From Armatimonadota bacterium (lineage in GTDB: Bacteria > Armatimonadota > Chthonomonadetes > Chthonomonadales > Chthonomonadaceae): a stretch of DNA of 64,000 bases. The stretch spans positions 1 through 64,000 of the forward strand of contig JAGWMJ010000006.1 in assembly GCA_028871815.1 (NCBI GenBank), in the 5' to 3' direction. Within the stretch, counting starts at the first letter, position 1. Each line of letters opens with the position of its first letter. A program made the translations under genes and the position numbers. Below are positions 18,774-38,056 of the stretch, piece by piece. The notes under the pieces are model-generated. The model worked only from the letters and a program-made list of their open reading frames with translations, was not told where the DNA came from and did not search any database.

Positions 18774-19742
18774 CTAGTAGCGCGGATCCCAGTACGGGTA
18801 GGTCCAAACAGCGCCGGTGGTGCTGTAAGCGCACTGTTCCAGCGAGTTAAACCGCATCGCCTTGGCGTGGCCATCGCAGAATGCGATATTGGCGAAGCCA
18901 CTGTTGATGCCGAGATCGAACTCCGTGTTGGCCGGGTTGTTGAACAGACCCACTCGCTGCGTGGCCTTGTGGACGTAGTACGTCCAGCCCGGATAGTAGT
19001 TGATGGGGTAGCCGCCCCAGTTGGTGCAGTTGGCCGAGTTGTTGTCATAAGCGGGCCACACGGCCATGTTGCCAACGCCCAGCTCTGGCGACGGATCGCC
19101 GTTCACGCCCTCGCCCCAGGTGCTGTCCGCGGTGAGCAGGATCAGCTCGGCCGGGCGCGCCCATGAGGATTGAGCGGCATCATTGGACTTGAAACCGGTA
19201 CCGTTGCCGCAACCACTCCAGTCGCCGCCGGGTCCGAATTCGGTGAGCAGCATGTTCACGGCCATCTGTGAGAAGCAGCCCTGGTAGATGCCGCGCTGAT
19301 CCAGCTGTGGTACGTACGGGAAGCTGGTGATGTACGGGTTACCGATAGCCGATGGCCAGTTTGTTTTGCCGATTTCGGGGCAGTATTGGATGTCGTGATT
19401 CTTCACATACGGGAAGATGACGCCTGTGAACATGGCGTCGGGCTCGTTGGGATCGGTGCCCGGCGTGCCCCAGTCAGGATAGCAAGTCGTACCGCCGCCG
19501 GCGCAGCATCCATATAGCGACGAGCCATTGTTATCCGTCAGTGGGATCTGCTCGTCGTAGTCCTCGGAGTACATGAGGGTGCCGAGCGCATACTGTTTGA
19601 CGTTGCTGAGGCATGAGGTCTGCCTTGCGGAAGCCCGTGCCTGAGCGAAGACGGGGAAGAGGATCGCCGCCAATATCGCAATGATAGCGATAACTACGAG
19701 CAACTCGATGAGCGTAAACGCCCGTCTGGTGTTGCGTGCCAT
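18774..19742 (-). CDS. Type II/IV pseudopilin of the DUF1559 (H-X9-DG) family
   Basis: The 322-residue product begins MARNTRRAFTLIELLVV, a class III prepilin leader cut before Phe by a prepilin peptidase, followed by a hydrophobic helix ending ILFPVFAQARASARQ. The next stretch TSCLSNVKQYALGTLMYSEDYDE is characteristic of such proteins in Armatimonadota and Planctomycetes. Near the C terminus ANIAFCDGHAKAMRF is the H-X9-DG-type signature. Many Cys, Trp and Tyr suggest a rigid secreted domain. ATG 19742 has GGAGG eight bases upstream; ATG 19748 is too close. No pilus assembly genes are adjacent. Confidence 0.88.
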   Translation of the reverse strand: MARNTRRAFTLIELLVVIAIIAILAAILFPVFAQARASARQTSCLSNVKQYALGTLMYSEDYDEQIPLTDNNGSSLYGCCAGGGTTCYPDWGTPGTDPNEPDAMFTGVIFPYVKNHDIQYCPEIGKTNWPSAIGNPYITSFPYVPQLDQRGIYQGCFSQMAVNMLLTEFGPGGDWSGCGNGTGFKSNDAAQSSWARPAELILLTADSTWGEGVNGDPSPELGVGNMAVWPAYDNNSANCTNWGGYPINYYPGWTYYVHKATQRVGLFNNPANTEFDLGINSGFANIAFCDGHAKAMRFNSLEQCAYSTTGAVWTYPYWDPRY

Positions 19743-20027
19743 ATACATAGCCTCCAGTCCTGCTCGATGTAAGTCTGCGGGCGGTTTGCCCGCCGGATGT
19801 GTGCTATGGCTGCTTACTGCTTTGCAGCTCGTAGGCTCCGGTCGCACGTGGTGACGAGAGCGCATCAGCGCGAAGAAGATATCACGCTGACAGTGGATTA
19901 TTACACAGCGGTCGCGCGATTCCTTCCGACTCACCAGTTTTTTGGAAGAATCTTTTGCTGCGCCCGGATCATGGCCGTAGACCACGGCTTTGCGCCTGTG
20001 TGTCACCGGTGGCGGAGTTGGAAAGGC
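19743..20027 (-). other. Intergenic region between typA and the prepilin gene
   Basis: About 285 bases without a supportable gene. It contains the prepilin ribosome binding site GGAGG and a small leader hairpin (GCGGGC 19777-19782 with GCCCGC 19788-19793). No clear promoter boxes were found. Confidence 0.4.
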
Positions 20028-20065
20028 AAAAAAGAAAGCGCCGATGGCGGCAGCCAACGGCGCTT
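20028..20065 (-). terminator. Intrinsic terminator of typA
   Basis: On the minus strand AAGCGCCG (20065-20058) pairs with CGGCGCTT (20043-20036) around a 14-base loop and is followed by TCTTTTTT. It starts 34 bases after the typA stop codon. Confidence 0.85.
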
Positions 20066-26523: not shown

Positions 26524-28308
26524 GTGAGGATGCAAGCGAGCGCACCGCCGGTTAGTGGGGCGAGCCGGTGGCAAGGGCCGGGGTTGTTCCGGCGCCTGAT
26601 CCATCGGATGCGCTGGCCGATTGGTATTGCGCTGACCGCAGCCGGTGTTGCGGCGGTTTATCGCGAGGGCGCCAGGTTTAATCCGACGGCGTCGCCGCCT
26701 GTCGGCCCGGCTGGCGAGCGATCCATTGAGTTGGACAACGTGGACTTCGCTTGCACCGTGGGTGGCGCCGCGCTCTGGCGGATCCACGCGGACCGCATTA
26801 CGATGCGTGCGGTGGCCGGCGCTATCGGCGCCATGCAGGAAGCGCATTGCGCGGGCCTGCGCGGTAGCGTCTATCAATCACGAGGTACCGGCGCGCCCGA
26901 GCTCACACCGAGCGACGCGGCTATGCCGCACCAATCCCCAGACGCCGACTTCACGGCCGCCTCGGGTGATTGGGATGTGGGAGGCTCGACGCCGCTGCCC
27001 GCAAGCCTCGCCTTCCTGTTTAACGAGAGATGGCAGCTGCAGTTGGACGGTGGTGTGAAGTTGAGTTTGCGAAATGGCCACCGCCTCGCAGCCGCCCGCA
27101 TGGTGATCTATGAGTTGTTGAATCGAGCCACGCAGCACGTGGAGCGGCGCGTGGTGTGCAGCAGCGGCGCGAAAGTAAGCGTTGGAAAGGCCACGATGAC
27201 GGCGGGAGGTGTGGTATACGATCCTCACGATCGGTCTGTGGAGGCCGACGGCGGCGTCGGCGTGACGATCCAACAGGCGCACTTGAGCGCGTCCAGGGCA
27301 TTCTGGTTGACTGCATCGCAGACGCTTCGGTGCCCAGAGCAATCCACAGGCGTCGTCCGAGGCATCCGGTTTCAGTGGACCGGCCTGGTCGTCAGCATGG
27401 CAAAATCCGATGCGATCTATCGCGCAACGGCGTTTCGGGCGCTCGTTCCGGTGGCGGCTGCGCTCATCGCTTTACAGCACTCGGCCGCAGGACAAACTCC
27501 GCTTCGCGTTGCGCCGGTTACTCCGCCGAAAGCCACGCGCAATCTGGATATCTCGGTGTCAGGAGGAGGCACGTACGACTCGCACACCCGCGAGGGGACG
27601 GCCACCGGCCTGATTGCGCTGGATGGGAAGACTCGATTTACGGCCGATAGCGCCACCTGGAGTGACGCGACGCACATCATGAAGGCAGACGGGCATCTTA
27701 CAATGGACGATGCCGCGCACCATGTCACCGCGAATCTGGCTACGGTTCACTACGCCTCACCTCGGCATGCGCTTTTGACCGGCGATGTGGTGATGGTGGT
27801 CAAGCCGGCGGAAACGCCGGATGCCGCCCCAGCTGCCGGCGGCCGGCCCAGTTCGGGCGCTGAACGGATTCATTCCGCACGCGCCCACGGCTTTACCGTC
27901 ACGTGCGACCAGGCGGACTACTTCTACGGCAAAGTGAAGCACGGCACTTTCGCCGGCTCGCTCAAGTTTCATCAGTTGTATACCGACGACGCCGGAAAGA
28001 CCGTAGAACGATGGGGCACGGCGAATCGGGCCGATTATGACGATAAATCGCAGACGCTGACGCTCTACCCGCCCGTCCACTTCTGGTCTAACCGCGGCGA
28101 AGATATCACCACGCAGCAAAAGCTGACGATCCACACCGAACCGGGCCACGAGAAGATCATCATTCCCGGCGCGTTTCATATGCTGCTGCCATCCGGGGAT
28201 GCGGATGGCACGGGGACATCCGCCCCACCGTTACCTCCTGCGAAGAGCCTGCCGGTTCACGGCAGTCCGGTTGGATCGCCGGCCGCGCCACCGAAGCCCA
28301 GCCACTGA
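26524..28308 (+). CDS. LptC-LptA-like fused protein
   Basis: One open frame of 594 residues reads like two Lpt proteins joined. Residues 15-45 form an anchor (WPIGIALTAAGVAAVY); the next 250 are OstA/LptC-like beta sequence (ERSIELDNVDFACTVGG, ARMVIYELLNRATQ, ATMTAGGVVYDPHDRSVEADGG). At 292-322 a second signal-like segment appears (MAKSDAIYRATAFRALVPVA), followed by a second OstA/LptA-like part (DGKTRFTADSATWSDATHIM, KADGHLTMDDAAHHVTANLA). LptC and LptA carry lipopolysaccharide across the periplasm. The internal ATG at 27397 may start a separate LptA. The first start codon is GTG 26524 or ATG 26530. Confidence 0.75.
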   Translation: MRMQASAPPVSGASRWQGPGLFRRLIHRMRWPIGIALTAAGVAAVYREGARFNPTASPPVGPAGERSIELDNVDFACTVGGAALWRIHADRITMRAVAGAIGAMQEAHCAGLRGSVYQSRGTGAPELTPSDAAMPHQSPDADFTAASGDWDVGGSTPLPASLAFLFNERWQLQLDGGVKLSLRNGHRLAAARMVIYELLNRATQHVERRVVCSSGAKVSVGKATMTAGGVVYDPHDRSVEADGGVGVTIQQAHLSASRAFWLTASQTLRCPEQSTGVVRGIRFQWTGLVVSMAKSDAIYRATAFRALVPVAAALIALQHSAAGQTPLRVAPVTPPKATRNLDISVSGGGTYDSHTREGTATGLIALDGKTRFTADSATWSDATHIMKADGHLTMDDAAHHVTANLATVHYASPRHALLTGDVVMVVKPAETPDAAPAAGGRPSSGAERIHSARAHGFTVTCDQADYFYGKVKHGTFAGSLKFHQLYTDDAGKTVERWGTANRADYDDKSQTLTLYPPVHFWSNRGEDITTQQKLTIHTEPGHEKIIIPGAFHMLLPSGDADGTGTSAPPLPPAKSLPVHGSPVGSPAAPPKPSH

Positions 28309-28582: not shown

Positions 28583-29791
28583 TTGAAGCCTTTATCCAAC
28601 CGTTCCAGGCACCATCGCGGATCCATGCTGATTGCGGCGCTGGCCTTCATCGGTATCACCAGCGTTATCACTGCCGGCATCCTTACACTGGCCACCGCGC
28701 ACTACAGCCGGTCGCGCACCGAGGCGAACTATGCAGCCGCGCTGGATGCGGCGGAGGCCGGCGCGAACTACGAGCTACGCAAAGTCAGCGACGATGCTTC
28801 GCAAGCCGACTCGGCGGGTACCACGGGCGGTGTTCAATACACGCTGCCCGAAGGCACGTTCAAAGTCTATTGCACCAGCCGTACCGGCGGTAACTGGACG
28901 GTCGGTACGCCGATGTACATCTACTCAAGCGGTACGGTGCACGGACTTACGAGAACCGTTCAGCTGGCAGCCAAGCCGCTGTGTGGAACCGGAGCGGACA
29001 ATTACGTGCTTTATGGCGTGAATTCCGGCACGCTTAATGGGTCCGCATCCGCGACAGGAGATATCGGCTCAAACGGGCTGCTCGCCTGGAATGGCGGCGC
29101 TTCAGTTACCGGAAAGGCCATATTCAATGGCCCTGGCGCCGGCTGGGCAAAGAACCCAGGCGGGAATATCACAAGCGTCTATAACACGACGGCGCTGGCA
29201 TGGCCCACCGTAGAAACCCTTGCCGCCAATGCGTTCCCACTGGGTGGTCTCTCCTGGCTCGCCACGAACAACGATAACGCGCTATCCGGTATCAGCAACG
29301 ATGCCGTGAACCTGAGCGGCTCCAGCCAGTTCACCTTTCAGAGCAAAGCCGGCGGGGCGAACTACTACCTGACCTCGCTCAGTACAAAAGGCGCTTCGTC
29401 ACTCTACTTTGCCAACAGCCTTGGCCCAATTACAATATGGGTCGGCCCAAGCGGCGCCAGTACGTCGGTAACCATCAACGGCGCGATGTCGGCTGTAGCA
29501 ATGTCGCAGGACCCGACGAAAATGGTGAAGTTCTATTTCGCCACAACCGGCAACGTTACATGGAACGGCGCCGCATCGCTCGATGCCGGCATCTACAACG
29601 TCAACAACGCCGGAACGGGCGCCGTGGTGATCCACGGATCATCGAGCCTGCTTGGTCAGATTATCGCCAATAGCTATACCATCGACGGCGCAAACGGCCT
29701 GCAGTACGAGGGCAGCTACTTTCCATCGCCCGGCGCGAGCTACTACGGAATGGACAACGCCCTGTTCGAGGACAACGGCGCCTGGAACTGA
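28583..29791 (+). CDS. PilX-like pilus-associated protein, paralog 1
   Basis: The 402-residue product starts with TTG 28583, with GAGAG upstream. After a basic head (MKPLSNRSRHHRG) comes a pilin-like helix SMLIAALAFIGITSVITAG, then HYSRSRTEANYAAALDAAEAGANYELRK, the PilX-type N-terminal pattern. The exported body is rich in Asn, Ser and Gly with a beta-helical look (GNVTWNGAASLDAGIYNVNN, GQIIANSYTIDG), resembling the adhesin-like domain of such proteins. It ends DNALFEDNGAWN. Two paralogs follow. The role is probably in a type IV pilus or pseudopilus tip, inferred. Confidence 0.75.
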   Translation: MKPLSNRSRHHRGSMLIAALAFIGITSVITAGILTLATAHYSRSRTEANYAAALDAAEAGANYELRKVSDDASQADSAGTTGGVQYTLPEGTFKVYCTSRTGGNWTVGTPMYIYSSGTVHGLTRTVQLAAKPLCGTGADNYVLYGVNSGTLNGSASATGDIGSNGLLAWNGGASVTGKAIFNGPGAGWAKNPGGNITSVYNTTALAWPTVETLAANAFPLGGLSWLATNNDNALSGISNDAVNLSGSSQFTFQSKAGGANYYLTSLSTKGASSLYFANSLGPITIWVGPSGASTSVTINGAMSAVAMSQDPTKMVKFYFATTGNVTWNGAASLDAGIYNVNNAGTGAVVIHGSSSLLGQIIANSYTIDGANGLQYEGSYFPSPGASYYGMDNALFEDNGAWN

Positions 29792-30043
29792 CCTCCGGTT
29801 TTGCCGCATGCTGAGCGGGCCGGTGAGCGTGTTTCGCCCGGTCGGGCGATCTGGGTCTTACCGCGCGCATCCCGGCACGGGCCGTCGCACCGGGAGCAGC
29901 TGATCGCAGAAGGCACAAGCGCCGATTCGAGCCAGAGCGTCTGCTGCACAAAATGCAATGCAAATGCAATATCGGATGGACAGCTTCACGGCCGTGAGCC
30001 AAGCTACCAGCGTGGTATGGCGTCGATTCCATGCCGAAAAGAG

Positions 30044-31255
30044 ATGACGAAAATGATCTGTTTGGGTAAACGTCCGGCGAGCCATTCCGGCACTATACTG
30101 ATCGGCGCAATGATATTTATTGGTATTGTCAGCATGATCACGGCAGGCGTGCTGACGCTTGCCACAGCGCACTACAGCCGGGCGAGCACCGAAGCGAACT
30201 ATGCCGCCGCGCTGGATGCCGCCGAGGCGGGAGCGAACTTCGAACTGCGCAAAATCAGCGACGATGTGACTCAGGCCGATGGGGCCGGGTCCACCGGTGG
30301 CGCTGCATACGCGCTTTCCGACGGAGGATTCAAGGTCTACTGCACCAGTCGTACCGGAGGTCCGTTCATACCTGGACAGACGCTGTACATCTACTCAACA
30401 GGCACGGTAAACGGACTCAGCCGGACGGTACAACTTGCGGCGAAACCCGGTTCGGCCCAGGGGAAGGACAACTATGTGCTGTACGGCGTGACTTCCGGAT
30501 TCAGGAGCGGAAACAGCCGCGCGGTGGGCAACATTGGGTCGAACGGCGACCTCTCGTGGAGTGGGCCGGCAACGGTCTCCGGCAAGGTGATCTTCAATGG
30601 ACCGGGCGCGGGCTGGTCGAAGCAGCCAAGCGGAACGCTATCAACGGTCTACAACCCCAATGCACTTGCCTGGCCAACGGTAGAGACGCTGGCCAGTGAA
30701 GAGTTCCCTCTCGGCGGGCTGACGTGGCTTGCGTCCAACAACGACAACGCACTCTCCGGCATCAAGAACAACTCGCTTACGGCTTCCGGTTCGTTCACGT
30801 TTCAAAGCAAAGTCGGCGGAGCGAACTACTATCTCACCGGGTTGACGACCGGTCTCAACACGGCGTTGTACTTCAACAACTTACTGGGTCCGATCACGGT
30901 TTGGATAGGGCCGAGTGGGGCCAACACCAACATCACGATCAGTGGCGCCTCCTCGATGCTCGACGCAACTCAAGACTCGACAAAGCTTGTCAGGCTTTAT
31001 ATTGCCACTTCAGGAAACGTTACCTGGGATGGTTCCGCCTCAATTGACGCGGGGATCTACAACGTCAACAATTCGGGTACCGGTTCCATAATCTTCAATG
31101 GCGGCGCGCAAGTTCTTGGCCAGGTCATAGCGAACTCGTATAGCCTCGAGGGCGCCGGCAGCCTGACTTATCAGGGTGGGTACTTTCCGGTGCCCGGAGC
31201 GGACTATTACGGAATGGACAACGCCCTTTTTGAGGATAATGGCGCCTGGAACTGA
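30044..31255 (+). CDS. PilX-like pilus-associated protein, paralog 2
   Basis: The product is 403 residues from ATG 30044 (ATG 30053 is also possible). It is very close to paralog 1 along its whole length: the helix TILIGAMIFIGIVSMITAG, the stretch HYSRASTEANYAAALDAAEAG, the motif ALAWPTVETLASEEFPLGGL, and the same C terminus DNALFEDNGAWN. Such similarity points to a recent tandem duplication. No prepilin cleavage Glu of the FTLIE type is present; the leader is of the PilX kind. A weak terminator hairpin follows at 31281. Confidence 0.75.
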   Translation: MTKMICLGKRPASHSGTILIGAMIFIGIVSMITAGVLTLATAHYSRASTEANYAAALDAAEAGANFELRKISDDVTQADGAGSTGGAAYALSDGGFKVYCTSRTGGPFIPGQTLYIYSTGTVNGLSRTVQLAAKPGSAQGKDNYVLYGVTSGFRSGNSRAVGNIGSNGDLSWSGPATVSGKVIFNGPGAGWSKQPSGTLSTVYNPNALAWPTVETLASEEFPLGGLTWLASNNDNALSGIKNNSLTASGSFTFQSKVGGANYYLTGLTTGLNTALYFNNLLGPITVWIGPSGANTNITISGASSMLDATQDSTKLVRLYIATSGNVTWDGSASIDAGIYNVNNSGTGSIIFNGGAQVLGQVIANSYSLEGAGSLTYQGGYFPVPGADYYGMDNALFEDNGAWN

Positions 31256-31280
31256 TGGGCGATCCGACACGTTGCTCAAA

Positions 31281-31313
31281 AGACCCGATTGCACTCAATG
31301 TGCAGTCGGGTCT
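31281..31313 (+). terminator. Hairpin terminator after PilX-like paralog 2
   Basis: AGACCCGAtTGCAC and GTGCAgTCGGGTCT form a stem of about 13 pairs with a five-base loop, flanked by AAAA before and TTT within and after the right arm. It lies 26 bases after the paralog 2 stop, so paralog 3 is probably transcribed separately. Confidence 0.6.
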
Positions 31314-31519
31314 TTCGCATTTTGTGGCCCGCATCCACTGCCGGGCATTTTAACCGCGAGCCGTTTACCAAAATCGGTACGAATACCCCTCTTGCGGACC
31401 GCTCCGCCCGTTTACAATAGTGGGCGGCGGTAACCTGCGCTGCCTAAAAAGCGCAGCGTAGTCCGTCGGTTGAAGTGGCAAGCCAACTCTGGTGTGGCCC
31501 TTCGCCGAAAGGAGTGCGA

Positions 31520-32746
31520 ATGTACGTGGCAACGACGAACAAGAGCCGAATGAACGGCAGCGCGCTGATTGGGGCGCTGGCGTTCACCATTGCAACCAGC
31601 ATGATCCTGGCAGGCGTTATCACGCTGGCGACCTCACACTATTTACGCACGAATACCGAGGCGGCCTATGCGGCCTCCTACGATGCGGCGGAGGCCGGTG
31701 TCAACTACGAGATCCGGAAGATCAGCCAGAGCCCAAGCAGCGCAGACCAGGCGGGCAGTACCGGCGGCTATACCAGTGCGCTGGCCGACGGCACGTTCCG
31801 CGTCTATTGCTCGGAGCGCTCAGGCGGGACGTGGACACCTCCGGACCCTCTCTACATCACGTCAACCGGTACGGTGGAGGGCGTATCGCGCACCATCCGC
31901 GTTGCTGCTCACGGTGTGGGGCAGGCCGCCACCGGGACCTTTGCGCTGTTTGGAACTGAAGACAGTGACATCGGCACGCTTTCCGGCAACCCCGTCGTGA
32001 TCGGCGATGTGGGCACAAATGGCCTGCTTACATTCAACGGCCATCCGTCTGTCTCCGGCGATGTGGTATTCGACGGCCCCGGATCGAACTGGACCTCGGG
32101 CGGGACAAACCCGAATTACACCGTAATATACAATCCCAGCGCATTGAGTTGGCCGACGGTTGAGTCGCTGGCTGCCGGCCAATTTGCGGGTGGTGGTCTA
32201 ACGTGGCTGGCAATCAACAACGACAACAGCCTGGCGGTACCGCCGATCACCAGCACCAACGTGAACCTTGGTGGTGGTTCCTCGCTCACTCTGGTCGGCA
32301 AGGCCGGTGGCGCCAACTACTACCTCAACAGCCTGACGATGACAGGAAACGCCACGCTCACGTTCAACAACTCAGCAGGTCCGATCAATGTCTGGTTCGG
32401 ACCGAGCGGCGCGCCCGGCGGCCTAACGTTGACCGGTGCGGCCGCCACGGTGAAGATGTCGACCGACCCGTCGCGAGCCGTGCGCTTCTATGTGGCAACC
32501 AGCAACAACATTTTTCTCACAGGAGACAGTGAGTTGGACTGCGGTGTTTATGCGATGAACGAAGCCGGCGACGACACGATCGGATTCAACGGCAACGCAA
32601 CGGCTTATGGACAGTATATCGCTCCACAGTTTTCGGTCGAGGGCACGCCGACGGTAACCTACCCGGGATCGATGTACTCCTCCAACTCACCTGCCTTCTT
32701 TGGATTCGACAGCGCCATGGCCGAGCAGAACGGCGCCTGGAACTAA
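31520..32746 (+). CDS. PilX-like pilus-associated protein, paralog 3
   Basis: From ATG 31520, with AAAGGAG seven bases upstream, the product is 408 residues. It is the more divergent third paralog: helix SALIGALAFTIATSMILAGV, HYLRTNTEAAYAASYDAAEAGVNYEIRK, ALSWPTVESLAAGQFAGGGL, and the C terminus FDSAMAEQNGAWN. A possible promoter (TTGCGG near 31393, TACAAT 15 bases later) and a CTGCGCT/AGCGCAG hairpin precede it. It converges on the GxGYxYP gene with only 13 bases between the stops. Confidence 0.72.
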   Translation: MYVATTNKSRMNGSALIGALAFTIATSMILAGVITLATSHYLRTNTEAAYAASYDAAEAGVNYEIRKISQSPSSADQAGSTGGYTSALADGTFRVYCSERSGGTWTPPDPLYITSTGTVEGVSRTIRVAAHGVGQAATGTFALFGTEDSDIGTLSGNPVVIGDVGTNGLLTFNGHPSVSGDVVFDGPGSNWTSGGTNPNYTVIYNPSALSWPTVESLAAGQFAGGGLTWLAINNDNSLAVPPITSTNVNLGGGSSLTLVGKAGGANYYLNSLTMTGNATLTFNNSAGPINVWFGPSGAPGGLTLTGAAATVKMSTDPSRAVRFYVATSNNIFLTGDSELDCGVYAMNEAGDDTIGFNGNATAYGQYIAPQFSVEGTPTVTYPGSMYSSNSPAFFGFDSAMAEQNGAWN

Positions 32747-32759
32747 TAGTGGCTCCCGG

Positions 32760-35726
32760 TCACGGCGCGCGCCACAAGCCCACCACGTCGGCTTCCAGCG
32801 CCGCGCTGCCGGTCCAGACCAGACGGGTTTCCAACTGCCCACCGGCGTGCCTGAACTCCACCGATACCCAGCGCCACTTGCCGCGCGGAAGCTGCTCGGC
32901 GGTGATCGGCGTATCTGCTTCCACCGTAAGTCCGCCGCCGACGCAGGGATCGAGGCGAGCCACCGTGCTGGCCGCATCACACTTGCCAGTTCGCTTCAGC
33001 CGGTAAAGGGCGGTATACGTGCCCGGCGGCTCCGAAGCGTAAGGCCCATAGAGTGCATGCTTGCCTGCCGGCATCCCACCGACAATCTGCCACGCGTTGG
33101 CGCTGAGGGCTGTGGCGTCTGCGACCGGCGCGCCCTCCTCGTGCGCCAGCGACGACGCGTCAAATGACTGGACGAAGCGCATTCCACGCGGCAGGTTCCC
33201 CACAACCTCACGTGCCTTCAGATTAAGTACCTCCACGGATTTGTCCCAGAGCTCCGATCCACTGACTGCCCGAAGCAGTAGCTTTGGACCGGTGGCGAAA
33301 CCCGAGACGTCGCAGTGGAGCGCTTGCCCGGACGCGAGAGCGGCCCTGTCCGGACGAATGGCGACCGAGGACATACCCCCGGCGGCAAGCAGGCGTAGTT
33401 CCAGAGGGCGATCGGTAACATTCTGAACAGTCACGCTCAGGTGGATGCGTCTTCCTGGAAGCGCCAGTGCCATGTGGGCCGCTCGCACCAGCACTTTGGC
33501 ACGTTTCAACTGTTCGCGGTAGAGCGCGGCCAGCTGCCCGGGCCGAACGCACACATATCCCGGTCCAAGCCGATCCATCACCTCTTTCAGCATCGGCAGC
33601 GTGGTATCCCAGTTCATCGCGAACAGATGCATGAACGCGGGCCGCTGCTTTGGCGTGAACTGCCGGATTTGGCTCACCAGGCTGGCTACCTGCGCCGGCT
33701 CACTCAGACCATCCTGAACCTGCGTGAGGGCACGGAACACCGGCGTAAGCCCGGCCACTGGAAAGTCCGCCGCACTGTAGCCGGCCACCTGCCGCCCATA
33801 ATCGGGAAAGATTGCCTGAATGCCGGGAATGGCGCGGGCGTATGCGTTGTACTCCCAGTGCTGCGTGGCGTTCATCACCCAGATGCTGCGCTCGCCCATC
33901 AAACTCATTTCAGCTGCGGTCTGGTGCAAGAACTCGTTCCAGACCCTCTGCCTGTACGGAGCGCGGAACCGGTCGCCAAAAAAGTCTGGGTACGTGTAAC
34001 CGGCGCCCGATACTGCCGCGAGAAACGCGTCGTCCGGCGTTGCGGTTTCGGTGTAGTAATCCACGATGTCGGGTATCAGCACCGCAGCCGATGGCGACAT
34101 GGTCCAGCCCAACGGTATCGTTCCGCGCTGTTTCTCGGCCCACAGTTGCGGAAAGTTGTTGTTGGTCAAAACCGGCAGGTTATCGCCGTCGGAGATGATC
34201 CAACTTGCGTAAACCTTGCCGGCATCCAGTTTAGGAGCAGGCGGCGGCGCCGGGCGATGGATTCTGACCCGTATTCCCGAGTGGACGCTGAGATTGGTGC
34301 AGTCGATCGACCCCACCAGATACTTGCCGAACTCGGCAAGCAGCTTCACGCCGGGCCCCTCTCCGATGCCGACATCCTTGCCGGCCCACGGGTAGCTCAT
34401 CACCGGTATATCGGCTGGCATGCGCGCGAGCAGCTGCTCCATCAGCCTGGCCTCGGCGGTCGGGTCGCTGAAAGGTTCCGCTCCATCAATCGGACCGGAT
34501 ATCCAGAAGCAAAAGATGCTCTTTTCAACCAGATAGTCGCGCAGACCAATATGATCGGGCCACGCGCATGCGATCACATGGTGGGTGAGCTGTGGCCAGA
34601 GGTGCTGAAACGACCAGAGGCATGCTTCCACGGTAGTGTGCCACTTGCCGCGCAGATCCATACCCACCGGCAGATTGAGAGACTTAGCGATGCGCGGAGA
34701 AGCGATCAGCCAGCCCTTCACAGCCGCGAGCATCGTTGCTGTATTGATCGTGGCCGGCAGTTCCGGGTCCGTGATCACCAGAGCGTGGAAGAACCGGCCG
34801 CGAAACCGGCCCAACAGGGATGAGGGGTGGTTCACGCGTTCGTAGCCCTGAATCCAACCGCGCTTTACCATCCATGCCAGCCACATGCGGTCACTGGGTT
34901 GAAAGATGCAATAGATCCTGGGCTGCGAGCGGTTCACCAACCCTTCCAGGCTCAGGAAGAGAAGCTGTCGATCCGGCGGCATCTTCTCGAGATCCACCAC
35001 CAGCAGGTGATGGGCCGGCGGCGCCGAACGAGGGAACAGGTCTGGAAACGGCCGCGCCTCCTGGTCCGGAACGATGCCATTCGGCACGCCGCTTAACTGT
35101 GCGGGAGCCGCCATCGGCAGCGCCTGGCTCACATTGCCGCCCGTCAGCTTGAACAGCGTGATCTTATCCACCGCAAGATCGGTGTATCCGCGCCAGTTGA
35201 TGCGCACTTCCAGCGCGCCACCGGGGCAGTGGAACGCCAGCGCCGCCTGAACGTAGTGACCGGGCGCGAGTTCCCTGCCGCGAACCTCCCGAGATGCCAG
35301 GATGTTCTGGCCGTGCCCGGTACAGGCGTCGAGCGTGGCCACCACCTCTGCGCCGGCGTCACTGCCGGACTTCAAGCGTACAAAGGCCACATAGTCGCCC
35401 GCTGCGGTGCGTCGATACGGGCCATACACCATTTCGCGGCCCGGCGTCGCCTCTCCCGATGCGGCCACCCACGCCGTGCCGCCGGCAGCCTGTGCATCGG
35501 ACTCGGCGCCGCCCGTCTGGTGTCCCTCGCCGACCCCGGCCGCAGACCACGATGCCCGCAGCGCGTATTGACCCACCGGCACGTACTTCAGGCTGCGTAC
35601 CTCGCCGAGAATGGATGCAGGTACGTTCTGCGCGGCCGCGGGCCGCGGCGCCGCGATCAAGATCAATAGCAATAGAAAGAGCAAGCGGATCCCCCGTTCA
35701 CGCCCGACTTCGGCAGGGCCAATCAA
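32760..35726 (-). CDS. Secreted GxGYxYP-domain protein with duplicated flanking modules
   Basis: About 988 residues, secreted by a signal peptide (LLFLLLLILIAAPRPAAAQ). The central part is the GxGYxYP domain, named from the motif seen here as SGAGYTYPDFF; related sequences occur beside polysaccharide-degrading genes and are suspected glycosidases. Before and after it stand two similar beta modules with the shared pattern GPY..GxYxAxxRLK....VAxLDxC.G.G....GGxLExRxxW. The start is uncertain: TTG 35726, 20 bases after the previous stop, is used; no ATG gives a sensible signal peptide. It follows the ADP-ribosylglycohydrolase-like gene in one operon. Confidence 0.8.
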   Translation of the reverse strand: MIGPAEVGRERGIRLLFLLLLILIAAPRPAAAQNVPASILGEVRSLKYVPVGQYALRASWSAAGVGEGHQTGGAESDAQAAGGTAWVAASGEATPGREMVYGPYRRTAAGDYVAFVRLKSGSDAGAEVVATLDACTGHGQNILASREVRGRELAPGHYVQAALAFHCPGGALEVRINWRGYTDLAVDKITLFKLTGGNVSQALPMAAPAQLSGVPNGIVPDQEARPFPDLFPRSAPPAHHLLVVDLEKMPPDRQLLFLSLEGLVNRSQPRIYCIFQPSDRMWLAWMVKRGWIQGYERVNHPSSLLGRFRGRFFHALVITDPELPATINTATMLAAVKGWLIASPRIAKSLNLPVGMDLRGKWHTTVEACLWSFQHLWPQLTHHVIACAWPDHIGLRDYLVEKSIFCFWISGPIDGAEPFSDPTAEARLMEQLLARMPADIPVMSYPWAGKDVGIGEGPGVKLLAEFGKYLVGSIDCTNLSVHSGIRVRIHRPAPPPAPKLDAGKVYASWIISDGDNLPVLTNNNFPQLWAEKQRGTIPLGWTMSPSAAVLIPDIVDYYTETATPDDAFLAAVSGAGYTYPDFFGDRFRAPYRQRVWNEFLHQTAAEMSLMGERSIWVMNATQHWEYNAYARAIPGIQAIFPDYGRQVAGYSAADFPVAGLTPVFRALTQVQDGLSEPAQVASLVSQIRQFTPKQRPAFMHLFAMNWDTTLPMLKEVMDRLGPGYVCVRPGQLAALYREQLKRAKVLVRAAHMALALPGRRIHLSVTVQNVTDRPLELRLLAAGGMSSVAIRPDRAALASGQALHCDVSGFATGPKLLLRAVSGSELWDKSVEVLNLKAREVVGNLPRGMRFVQSFDASSLAHEEGAPVADATALSANAWQIVGGMPAGKHALYGPYASEPPGTYTALYRLKRTGKCDAASTVARLDPCVGGGLTVEADTPITAEQLPRGKWRWVSVEFRHAGGQLETRLVWTGSAALEADVVGLWRAP

Positions 35727-35746
35727 CGGTCGACGCGGCGTGGTGG

Positions 35747-38056
35747 TTACCAGCCCGTATTGCCGATATCGGCTATACCGCAGCCGGAGCCATCTGCCAA
35801 CCCGACAACAAAGCGGATCGGTTCGGCGCTGCGCACCCACTTCACCATAATCACATTATCGCCTGCGCGCAGCGATATATCCACTGCCCAGGGTCCCGAG
35901 CCAACCTGCGGCAGCCATGGATCTTTGTTGAGCCGGCGAAAGACCAGCGCGCCATTGAGCCAGACCTTCACGCCATAGTTGCTGTTCACGACCAGACGCG
36001 CATCGCGCGCGGCACGGCTCCGAAATACGGTCTGGCCGTAGCAAACACCCTCGGAAGAGCGGAACAGCGACTCAAGGTCCATGCTCGCTTCAGCGAACAC
36101 ACGTCGCTCCCAGCCGATGGATTGCTGCAGACGGCTGGTGTACCGTTCGGCGAGGCCCGGTCTGTCTTCCGGCGCGCCGGCCCGGTCATAGCCGTCGCCG
36201 CCAAAGCTGGCAAACGGCCCGGTTACAACCCAGCAGGAGGCGCCAAGGATCACGAATTCGGCGAACATCGTCGATCCGCCGTCCGAGGGGTCCAGACGCA
36301 AGGTCAATGCGTTGGCAATATCAATGAAAGCGCTGCCTTCCCGTACCATCACGGCGAAGCCGAATCGGGCAGCCGCGCCGGCGGCGATCACGTGCCGCTG
36401 TCCGTAATCGGGCGGCGCCGCCACCTGCCAACCAGCGGGCGCCAGCAGCGACACACGGCCATCAAATGGCTGATCGGTCGTGTTGAGTACCGTGAACTGC
36501 AGCTGCCGGTTCTCGTTGTAGGCAACGGCTGCGTTGGCGCCCATATCCATGGTAACCGTGAATGCGCCCGCCGGGCTGGAGGTGGAGCAGGGAGGCGCTA
36601 CCAGCAGCGGCTTGATGGAGGTGCTGTCGGCCCACGCAATTGCGCCACTCCAGTCCGGCGCCGCAGGCGCAGCGGTGACCTGAGGTGGCGCGGTAAGCTG
36701 TTCGGCCTCGTCCTGCTCGAGTACTTCGGTTTGCGGTACGGTCGCGGCGTCCGAATTGATGGGCTGCGGTATGGCGGCCGTTGCCACAGGGAGAGGCGCC
36801 GGCAGGTCGGACGGAACCGCAGCCTGTGGCGTAGGCACCGGTTCCGTTAGATCGGTATCGTCCGGTACCGGCGAACTCGCCGGGGCTTCGGCTCTCTCGG
36901 TCGGCGCGACGGATGGCGGAGCGACCAGTGCGGCGGCCGGCTCCGCGGCGCCACTTGCAGCATGTGCCGGGTCAGCGACATCCCGGGCGCCATCCGCGCT
37001 CGGCGGCGCTGCAGGTTGCTGCACATCCGGCGACTCCGGCACGGCAACGGTTTCGCAGATCGCGGTGTCGTGGCAGCATGCCGACACAATTTGAGCGCCG
37101 AGCGCAGCGGTGCGATCGGCAAGCTCCTGCGTGGTCGCCGCGGCGCGGAAGTTGACAAGGCCCACACCCGGGATGATCACACCGGCCAGGGGCGCGATCC
37201 ACGCAGGCGGCAGCCCTCGGGCGCCGAGCAGGATACCCAGTGTGGAACCCACTGCGCCGGCAGCTGCTTCGGACTCGAAGCCACAGTTGGCCGCGGCGCA
37301 GATCGCTTCGCCGAAACCGCCAAGTGCGGCGAGGAAGCCGATTGTGAAGAAACCGGCTGTCAGCGCTGCGTCGTTGCCAACTCCGCCGCCCAGCGAGTTC
37401 ATAACCGCTTCGCGCGCGGTCAGCCATGTACGGCCCTGCTGCCAGGTGGCAAGCGCCGCCTTTACGGCGATGGCGGTGCGGCATGTGCGCGGTATCATCG
37501 CCAGGCCGATGGTGAGCAGCGACATCGTGTCACTGAGGAAGAAGGCCGAACTCTGGAGCGCCGCAAGGAACATGGCGGACCACACGCCTTCTTCCGCGTG
37601 ATCCATACGCGAATCGTAACACGCTCGTGCCGCCGCTATCTGCGGTGCGCCCGGCGCCGTCAACGCCCAAATCTCAGCGCGGGCAAAGCCGGCAACGCCG
37701 TGTTTAGCGGGGTTGCTGTGAAAGCCGGACGCAGGCGGCCGGAGCCCCCGCCGCATGTTGAGCGCGGCGAAGCCCAACTCCGACTGGTTGTACGCCAGGT
37801 GGTCCATCCATGCGGCGGCCAGATCCTCCGGAGTCACCTCGCCAGGGCGCTGCTCCAGCGTGGCCAGCCAAACCAGCGGAAAGTCCATCCATGGGCCCGC
37901 GTACGGCTGAGATGGTGTGGTTGGCCAGCCGGCTAGCGATCCAGGAAACGCACTGCCCTGAAGGTTGCTGCCCAGAGTCAGGCCGGCCAGGCGGCCTTGC
38001 CAGGCTCCCAACACCTTGTCTGCATAGTCGGCTGTTGAGATTTCCAGAGATGCCAT
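35747..38056 (-). CDS. ADP-ribosylglycohydrolase-like protein with C-terminal beta domain
   Basis: The 769-residue product starts at ATG 38056 (GAAAGG eight bases upstream). Residues 10-340 look like the all-helical ADP-ribosylglycohydrolase fold: YADKVLGAWQGRLAGLTLGS, GPWMDFPLVWLATLE, DHAEEGVWSAMFLAALQSSAFF, and NCGFESEAAAGAVGSTLGILLG. Classical enzymes show Asp-rich metal motifs (TDDT, DTDT) at these sites; here they read MDFP and ESEA, so catalysis may be altered or lost. A Pro/Ala/Val-rich linker (about 350-470) leads to a beta region ending in a lectin-like module (NYGVKVWLNGALVFRRLNKD, AGDNVIMVKWV). No signal peptide is seen. Confidence 0.75.
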   Translation of the reverse strand: MASLEISTADYADKVLGAWQGRLAGLTLGSNLQGSAFPGSLAGWPTTPSQPYAGPWMDFPLVWLATLEQRPGEVTPEDLAAAWMDHLAYNQSELGFAALNMRRGLRPPASGFHSNPAKHGVAGFARAEIWALTAPGAPQIAAARACYDSRMDHAEEGVWSAMFLAALQSSAFFLSDTMSLLTIGLAMIPRTCRTAIAVKAALATWQQGRTWLTAREAVMNSLGGGVGNDAALTAGFFTIGFLAALGGFGEAICAAANCGFESEAAAGAVGSTLGILLGARGLPPAWIAPLAGVIIPGVGLVNFRAAATTQELADRTAALGAQIVSACCHDTAICETVAVPESPDVQQPAAPPSADGARDVADPAHAASGAAEPAAALVAPPSVAPTERAEAPASSPVPDDTDLTEPVPTPQAAVPSDLPAPLPVATAAIPQPINSDAATVPQTEVLEQDEAEQLTAPPQVTAAPAAPDWSGAIAWADSTSIKPLLVAPPCSTSSPAGAFTVTMDMGANAAVAYNENRQLQFTVLNTTDQPFDGRVSLLAPAGWQVAAPPDYGQRHVIAAGAAARFGFAVMVREGSAFIDIANALTLRLDPSDGGSTMFAEFVILGASCWVVTGPFASFGGDGYDRAGAPEDRPGLAERYTSRLQQSIGWERRVFAEASMDLESLFRSSEGVCYGQTVFRSRAARDARLVVNSNYGVKVWLNGALVFRRLNKDPWLPQVGSGPWAVDISLRAGDNVIMVKWVRSAEPIRFVVGLADGSGCGIADIGNTGW

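Follow-up and report, generated by a model that had tools for sequence, protein, structure and literature searches.

A tandem triplet of candidate ComZ-like solenoid pilins in an Armatimonadota genome and its C-terminal NGAWN ending

In ComZ of Thermus thermophilus, a large β-solenoid sits between the penultimate and the last strands of the pilin sheet (PMC6561018). The pilin domain of this protein is GspK-like, its authors argue for a position at the pilus tip, and DNA binding has been demonstrated (PMC6561018). The same authors name an ice-binding protein as the nearest relative of the solenoid, which carries no conserved ice-binding residues despite this fold relation (PMC6561018).

Here we describe three tandem genes in a 64,000-nucleotide stretch of Armatimonadota DNA (the window), whose products we consider probable lineage-specific duplicates of a ComZ-like minor or tip pilin, with the C-terminal pentapeptide NGAWN as a shifted anchor of the final strand and no sorting tag. 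As proteins, the three are of an ordinary kind, but their C-terminal feature is interesting and testable.

Three tandem genes ending in NGAWN

An initial annotation of the window had pointed to three tandem paralogs that end in NGAWN. These are borne out as three open reading frames on the plus strand, each running into NGAWN and a stop codon, and a DNA pattern search for this ending returned exactly three occurrences in the 3.68 Mb genome, all within the triplet. The features are as follows:

28583..29791, plus strand: copy 1, 402 aa, TTG start, with PilX-type helix, pilin strands, β-solenoid, last strand and NGAWN tail
28616..28792, plus strand: PilX-type N-terminal helix of copy 1 (residues 12-70), with a cleavage-like G13, no Glu at +5, and DAAEAGxNxExRK
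29774..29791, plus strand: NGAWN-stop of copy 1, from the DNA pattern search
30053..31255, plus strand: copy 2, about 400 aa, likely ATG start at 30053 or 30044, 67% identity to copy 1
31238..31255, plus strand: NGAWN-stop of copy 2, from the DNA pattern search
31279..31315, plus strand: strong terminator-like hairpin of 16 pairs, 3' of copy 2, a consensus match only, as hairpins overall are not enriched relative to shuffled sequences
31520..32746, plus strand: copy 3, 408 aa, ATG start with AAGGAG upstream, 48% identity to copy 1
32729..32746, plus strand: NGAWN-stop of copy 3, from the DNA pattern search

The mechanical open reading frame of copy 2 begins earlier, at 29801. Because the hairpin comes after copy 2, copy 3 is probably a separate transcription unit. 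The triplet is solitary, lying away from the pilus clusters of the same genome. Immediately upstream, 26524-28308 on the plus strand encodes a 594-aa protein with no Pfam match and, by eye, an LptA/LptC-type look. On the other side, 32760-35840 on the minus strand encodes a 1026-aa protein with GAGYTYP, a string that resembles the motif of the GxGYxYP family. A separate pilin-like protein, matching N_methyl and DUF1559 (SBP_bac_10), is encoded at 18774-20057 on the minus strand, and N_methyl matches number 37 in the genome as a whole.

Family, predicted fold and gene neighborhood

Of 291 genomes from the phylum Armatimonadota, 32 encode homologs at E ≤ 1e-20, and the named relatives of the window genome belong to Chthonomonadales. 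The family alignment used throughout has 23 members, comprising the three window copies and 20 sequences from outside the window. DUF7305 (PF23981) is matched by 15 of these 23, over the C-terminal half of the body (best E 1e-8), and PilX_N (PF14341) by eight (best E 4.3e-7). In the window proteins themselves, copy 3 gives the best DUF7305 score of the triplet, 29.4 bits with neighboring in-frame matches summed and 22.4 bits alone against a cut-off of 27 bits, with copies 1 and 2 at 15.7-19.4 bits; PilX_N has no match in any of the three at E ≤ 1 (cut-off 25.5 bits), nor does any NCBIfam model match them. The features of a PilX-type N terminus are nevertheless present in the window copies, namely a prepilin-like Gly before a hydrophobic helix, no Glu5, and AEAG, and G13 is conserved in at least 90% of the alignment.

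An AlphaFold model of copy 1 (pLDDT 82.6, pTM 0.63) places a helix at residues 12-70, strands at 84-136, a β-body at about 141-375, a last strand at 383-397, and the NGAWN tail (398-402) as a low-confidence overhang just past that strand. The model of a distant homolog, L075 (pLDDT 84.7, pTM 0.67), has the same long N-terminal helix, small sheet, long β-body, and single long final strand (389-407), which here includes the motif W-M-E. The two models are not fully independent, because both were built from the same 23 sequences. In Foldseek searches, ComZ (6QVI) is the first match for both, with E values of 1.8e-7 and 3.9e-5, followed by DUF3494-type ice-binding solenoids at 12-16% sequence identity. 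This top match and the order of secondary structure elements in the two models both correspond to a pilin fold with an inserted β-solenoid. With normalization by query length, TM-scores against ComZ are low at 0.26-0.37, which reflects either differently oriented domains or imperfect models; sequence searches against solved structures gave no link for the window family, and no sequence-level similarity to ComZ was detected. Hence, the likeness to ComZ is a statement on architecture. From ComZ topology, it would follow that the last strand pairs with the pilin sheet in the window proteins as well.

Gene order among the relatives points toward pili. In five of them (L072, L073, L074, L077, and L080), the family gene follows one or two small N_methyl pilin genes on the same strand, at a distance of 34-186 bp. 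The nearest related pilins in the window genome are encoded on a contig other than that of the triplet, contig C11: the adjacent pilins of L072, L073, L074, and L077 are 59-67% identical to those of C11, and those of L080 32-38%. The C11 cluster also contains T2SSE, T2SSF, and PilM/PilN genes, with a secretin nearby, and the window copies probably serve this pilus system as a set of tips. Two near-identical small pilins lie next to each other in the C11 cluster (L136, 5692-6066 and 6676-7050), apparently from a recent duplication. Elsewhere in the genome, a cluster on contig C1 encodes PilB/PilT-type ATPases and a prepilin peptidase.

Tandem copies of the family gene also occur in other lineages, with two in L070/L071 and three each in L083 and L084. 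The three-gene arrays of L083 and L084 have repeated NN, not NG, at the turns of the body, and W-x-E right before the stop. The window copies may offer alternative surfaces for one secretion or pilus system, as the annotation suggested. In these copies, conservation of the solenoid is only a little below that of the pilin part; we dropped this as a sign of diversifying selection, since the differences are small and synonymous sites are near saturation. Taken together, homology, fold comparison, and gene neighborhood support what had been proposed in the initial annotation for the rest of the protein, that is, a PilX-type N terminus, a β-helical body, a role at the pilus tip, and duplicated copies.

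The NGAWN tail and the family-wide tryptophan

The claim that NGAWN is a special conserved tag fared differently. None of the 20 aligned homologs from outside the window ends in NGAWN, nor does any further homolog listed, which is the loss from other family members that the annotation itself had named as counting against the motif. A C-terminal sorting tag would be invariant across its family or recur on several unrelated proteins, and NGAWN does neither; with the ending confined to three proteins in the genome and absent from homologs, we rejected it as a family-wide tag. The window copies form one clade (support 97/94), with homologs from genomes G012 and G015 as the nearest sequences (86/83). 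Because the homologs lack NGAWN and the three copies are one clade, a single recent origin is indicated; most simply, NGAWN arose once.

Within the triplet, retention of NGAWN is slightly above chance. Invariant runs of at least five residues number five (GGANYYL, DAAEAG, NGAWN, GPSGA, and WPTVE) against about two expected by shuffling, and the probability that the last five columns are invariant is 0.007 by column shuffling of the three copies. Across the wider family, GGANYYL, WPTV, and GPSG are strongly conserved, and DAAEAG is conserved as xAEAG, but NGAWN is not.

What the family does share at this end is a tryptophan. The motif W-x-[ED] lies within the last 12 residues in 20 of the 23 aligned members, i.e., in all 20 from outside the window, and is followed in these by a variable tail of 0 to 6 residues. 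Their endings include FDNNSWFEVNPSGY, YDNSWMEINGR, FDNSWVEVNPR, TPWSEIGGFY, NGTWYDLFKVNE, DWREFE, and VWQE, and distant members keep YGFxxxWxE, with endings FYGFDRSWEEVDAL, IYGFSDTWQEI, and YYNSWEWQESNPR. At the corresponding site, the window copies have L, L, and M in place of W (L-F-E or M-A-E), retain the E, and continue into the NGAWN extension, whose own W stands two from the C-terminal end. As the window copies have lost the W-x-E tryptophan and gained that of NGAWN, the 12 C-terminal residues contain a single Trp in each of the 23 aligned members, compared to a Trp frequency of 1.3% elsewhere. DUF7305 proteins that do not belong to the aligned family have a Trp among their 12 C-terminal residues in 13 of 16 cases with PilX-type N termini and in none of six with Tad-type N termini (Fisher p 0.001, or 0.009 with close pairs collapsed; N termini were typed by pattern and visual inspection). 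The suggestion that the C-terminal motif tracks with PilX-type N termini therefore holds for a C-terminal Trp, usually as W-x-E, but not for NGAWN. On these sequence comparisons, NGAWN is best read as a local version of the family-wide C-terminal tryptophan, with no sign of a new sorting tag.

In other Armatimonadota (L110, L115, L124, L129, L131, and L133), DUF7305 follows Tad-type N termini with a VDIGR helix, and the C-terminal Trp is absent, so that the same body is carried on a second kind of pilin-like base.

Proposed role, alternatives and comparison with known systems

In the mechanism that we propose, the N-terminal PilX/GspK-type helix, with its Gly before the hydrophobic stretch and no Glu5, would be processed by a prepilin peptidase. 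Once processed, the proteins would be packed in at the base as a type IV pilus or pseudopilus starts to form and finish at its tip with the solenoid exposed; a tip position is the most likely one, given the large β-solenoid that interrupts the pilin sheet ahead of its last strand. Past the solenoid, the C-terminal strand would complete the pilin sheet and carry the conserved Trp-x-acidic motif with a short overhang, which in this lineage is NGAWN. The NGAWN Trp probably replaces the lost W-x-E Trp as the anchor of the final strand, serving fold closure. The ligand would be DNA or a surface.

It is improbable, in our judgment, that NGAWN is instead a true C-terminal recognition signal by which a dedicated partner in this lineage directs assembly, docking, or export. 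The tail is identical at five of five positions, whereas identity of copy 3 to copies 1 and 2 drops to 23-32% over the 22 residues that precede it, and such a contrast, like the shuffling probability given above and the prediction of the tail as a low-confidence overhang, would suit a signal. Against this, the ending is absent from every homolog found, including the relatives whose genes lie beside pilins, it has a single origin in one clade, and its three carriers in the genome leave it no wider clientele; the 16 identical nucleotides encoding it may also be due in part to a preference for GC-rich codons or to local gene conversion. The higher identity of the tail than of the strand before it could nonetheless mark an extra function, and the modest signal from shuffling may leave room for one that is specific to this lineage. 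The Trp (usually in W-x-E) at the far end of the last pilin strand could also characterize PilX-type solenoid pilins in general and serve as the point where the next pilin or the machine docks or assembles. In the NGAWN triplet, this site would have moved onto the overhang, with three alternative tips available to one pilus; we regard this as unlikely, if somewhat less so than a lineage-specific signal.

Two further alternatives concern the assembly and its ligand. The window proteins could act as GspK-like pseudopilins in type II secretion and build a pseudopilus in the periplasm instead of a surface pilus. This would be in keeping with the GspK-like pilin domain of ComZ (PMC6561018), with the missing Glu5, and with the GspE/F clusters that the genome has in addition to its C1 pilus genes, and the C11 cluster itself could be a type II secretion system. 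A recognizable GspK with T2SSK and HHH domains, however, is already encoded in the type II secretion cluster of contig C4, the window proteins have no T2SSK match, and the C11 cluster encodes PilM/PilN-type proteins, so that we give this assignment a small chance. More open, though still doubtful, is whether the solenoid acts as an adhesin, for ice or for some other surface, in place of a DNA receptor; this concerns the ligand and is compatible with the tip-pilin reading. The DUF3494-type proteins that rank next among the fold matches suggest it, but their sequence identity is just 12-16%, and the solenoid of ComZ is related to such proteins in fold in the same way yet lacks conserved ice-binding residues (PMC6561018). 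A ComEC homolog encoded in the window genome keeps DNA uptake possible, but ComEC is common.

If the triplet does consist of ComZ-like tip pilins, then solenoid pilins of this kind, represented by a single solved protein from Thermus, would be extended by fold comparison to a poorly studied phylum, and DUF7305 proteins with PilX-type helices would gain a testable structural role. A supposed novel tag would give way to a C-terminal Trp shared by the whole family and open to testing by mutation. That tandem duplicates recur in several lineages is a hint that the exposed part has diversified.

Among known systems, GspK resembles the window proteins through the GspK-like pilin domain of the ComZ type and their lack of Glu5, and differs in that the true GspK of this genome is encoded on contig C4; the T2SSK search, for which that cluster served as a positive control, gave no match in the window proteins. 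The PilX_N minor pilins share the cleavage-like Gly, the absence of Glu5, and AEAG in the helix, but their model is a 51-position helix, and the large solenoid body of the window proteins lies outside it. DUF7305 is also found behind Tad-type N termini, there without the C-terminal Trp, unlike in the window family. ComZ itself comes from another phylum and differs in solenoid length ("shorter solenoid"), and the window genes form a solitary triplet. Like the window proteins, it combines a pilin helix and sheet with a large β-solenoid and a final strand after the solenoid, and comZ adjoins pilA2, much as the family gene comes after pilin genes in the five relatives.
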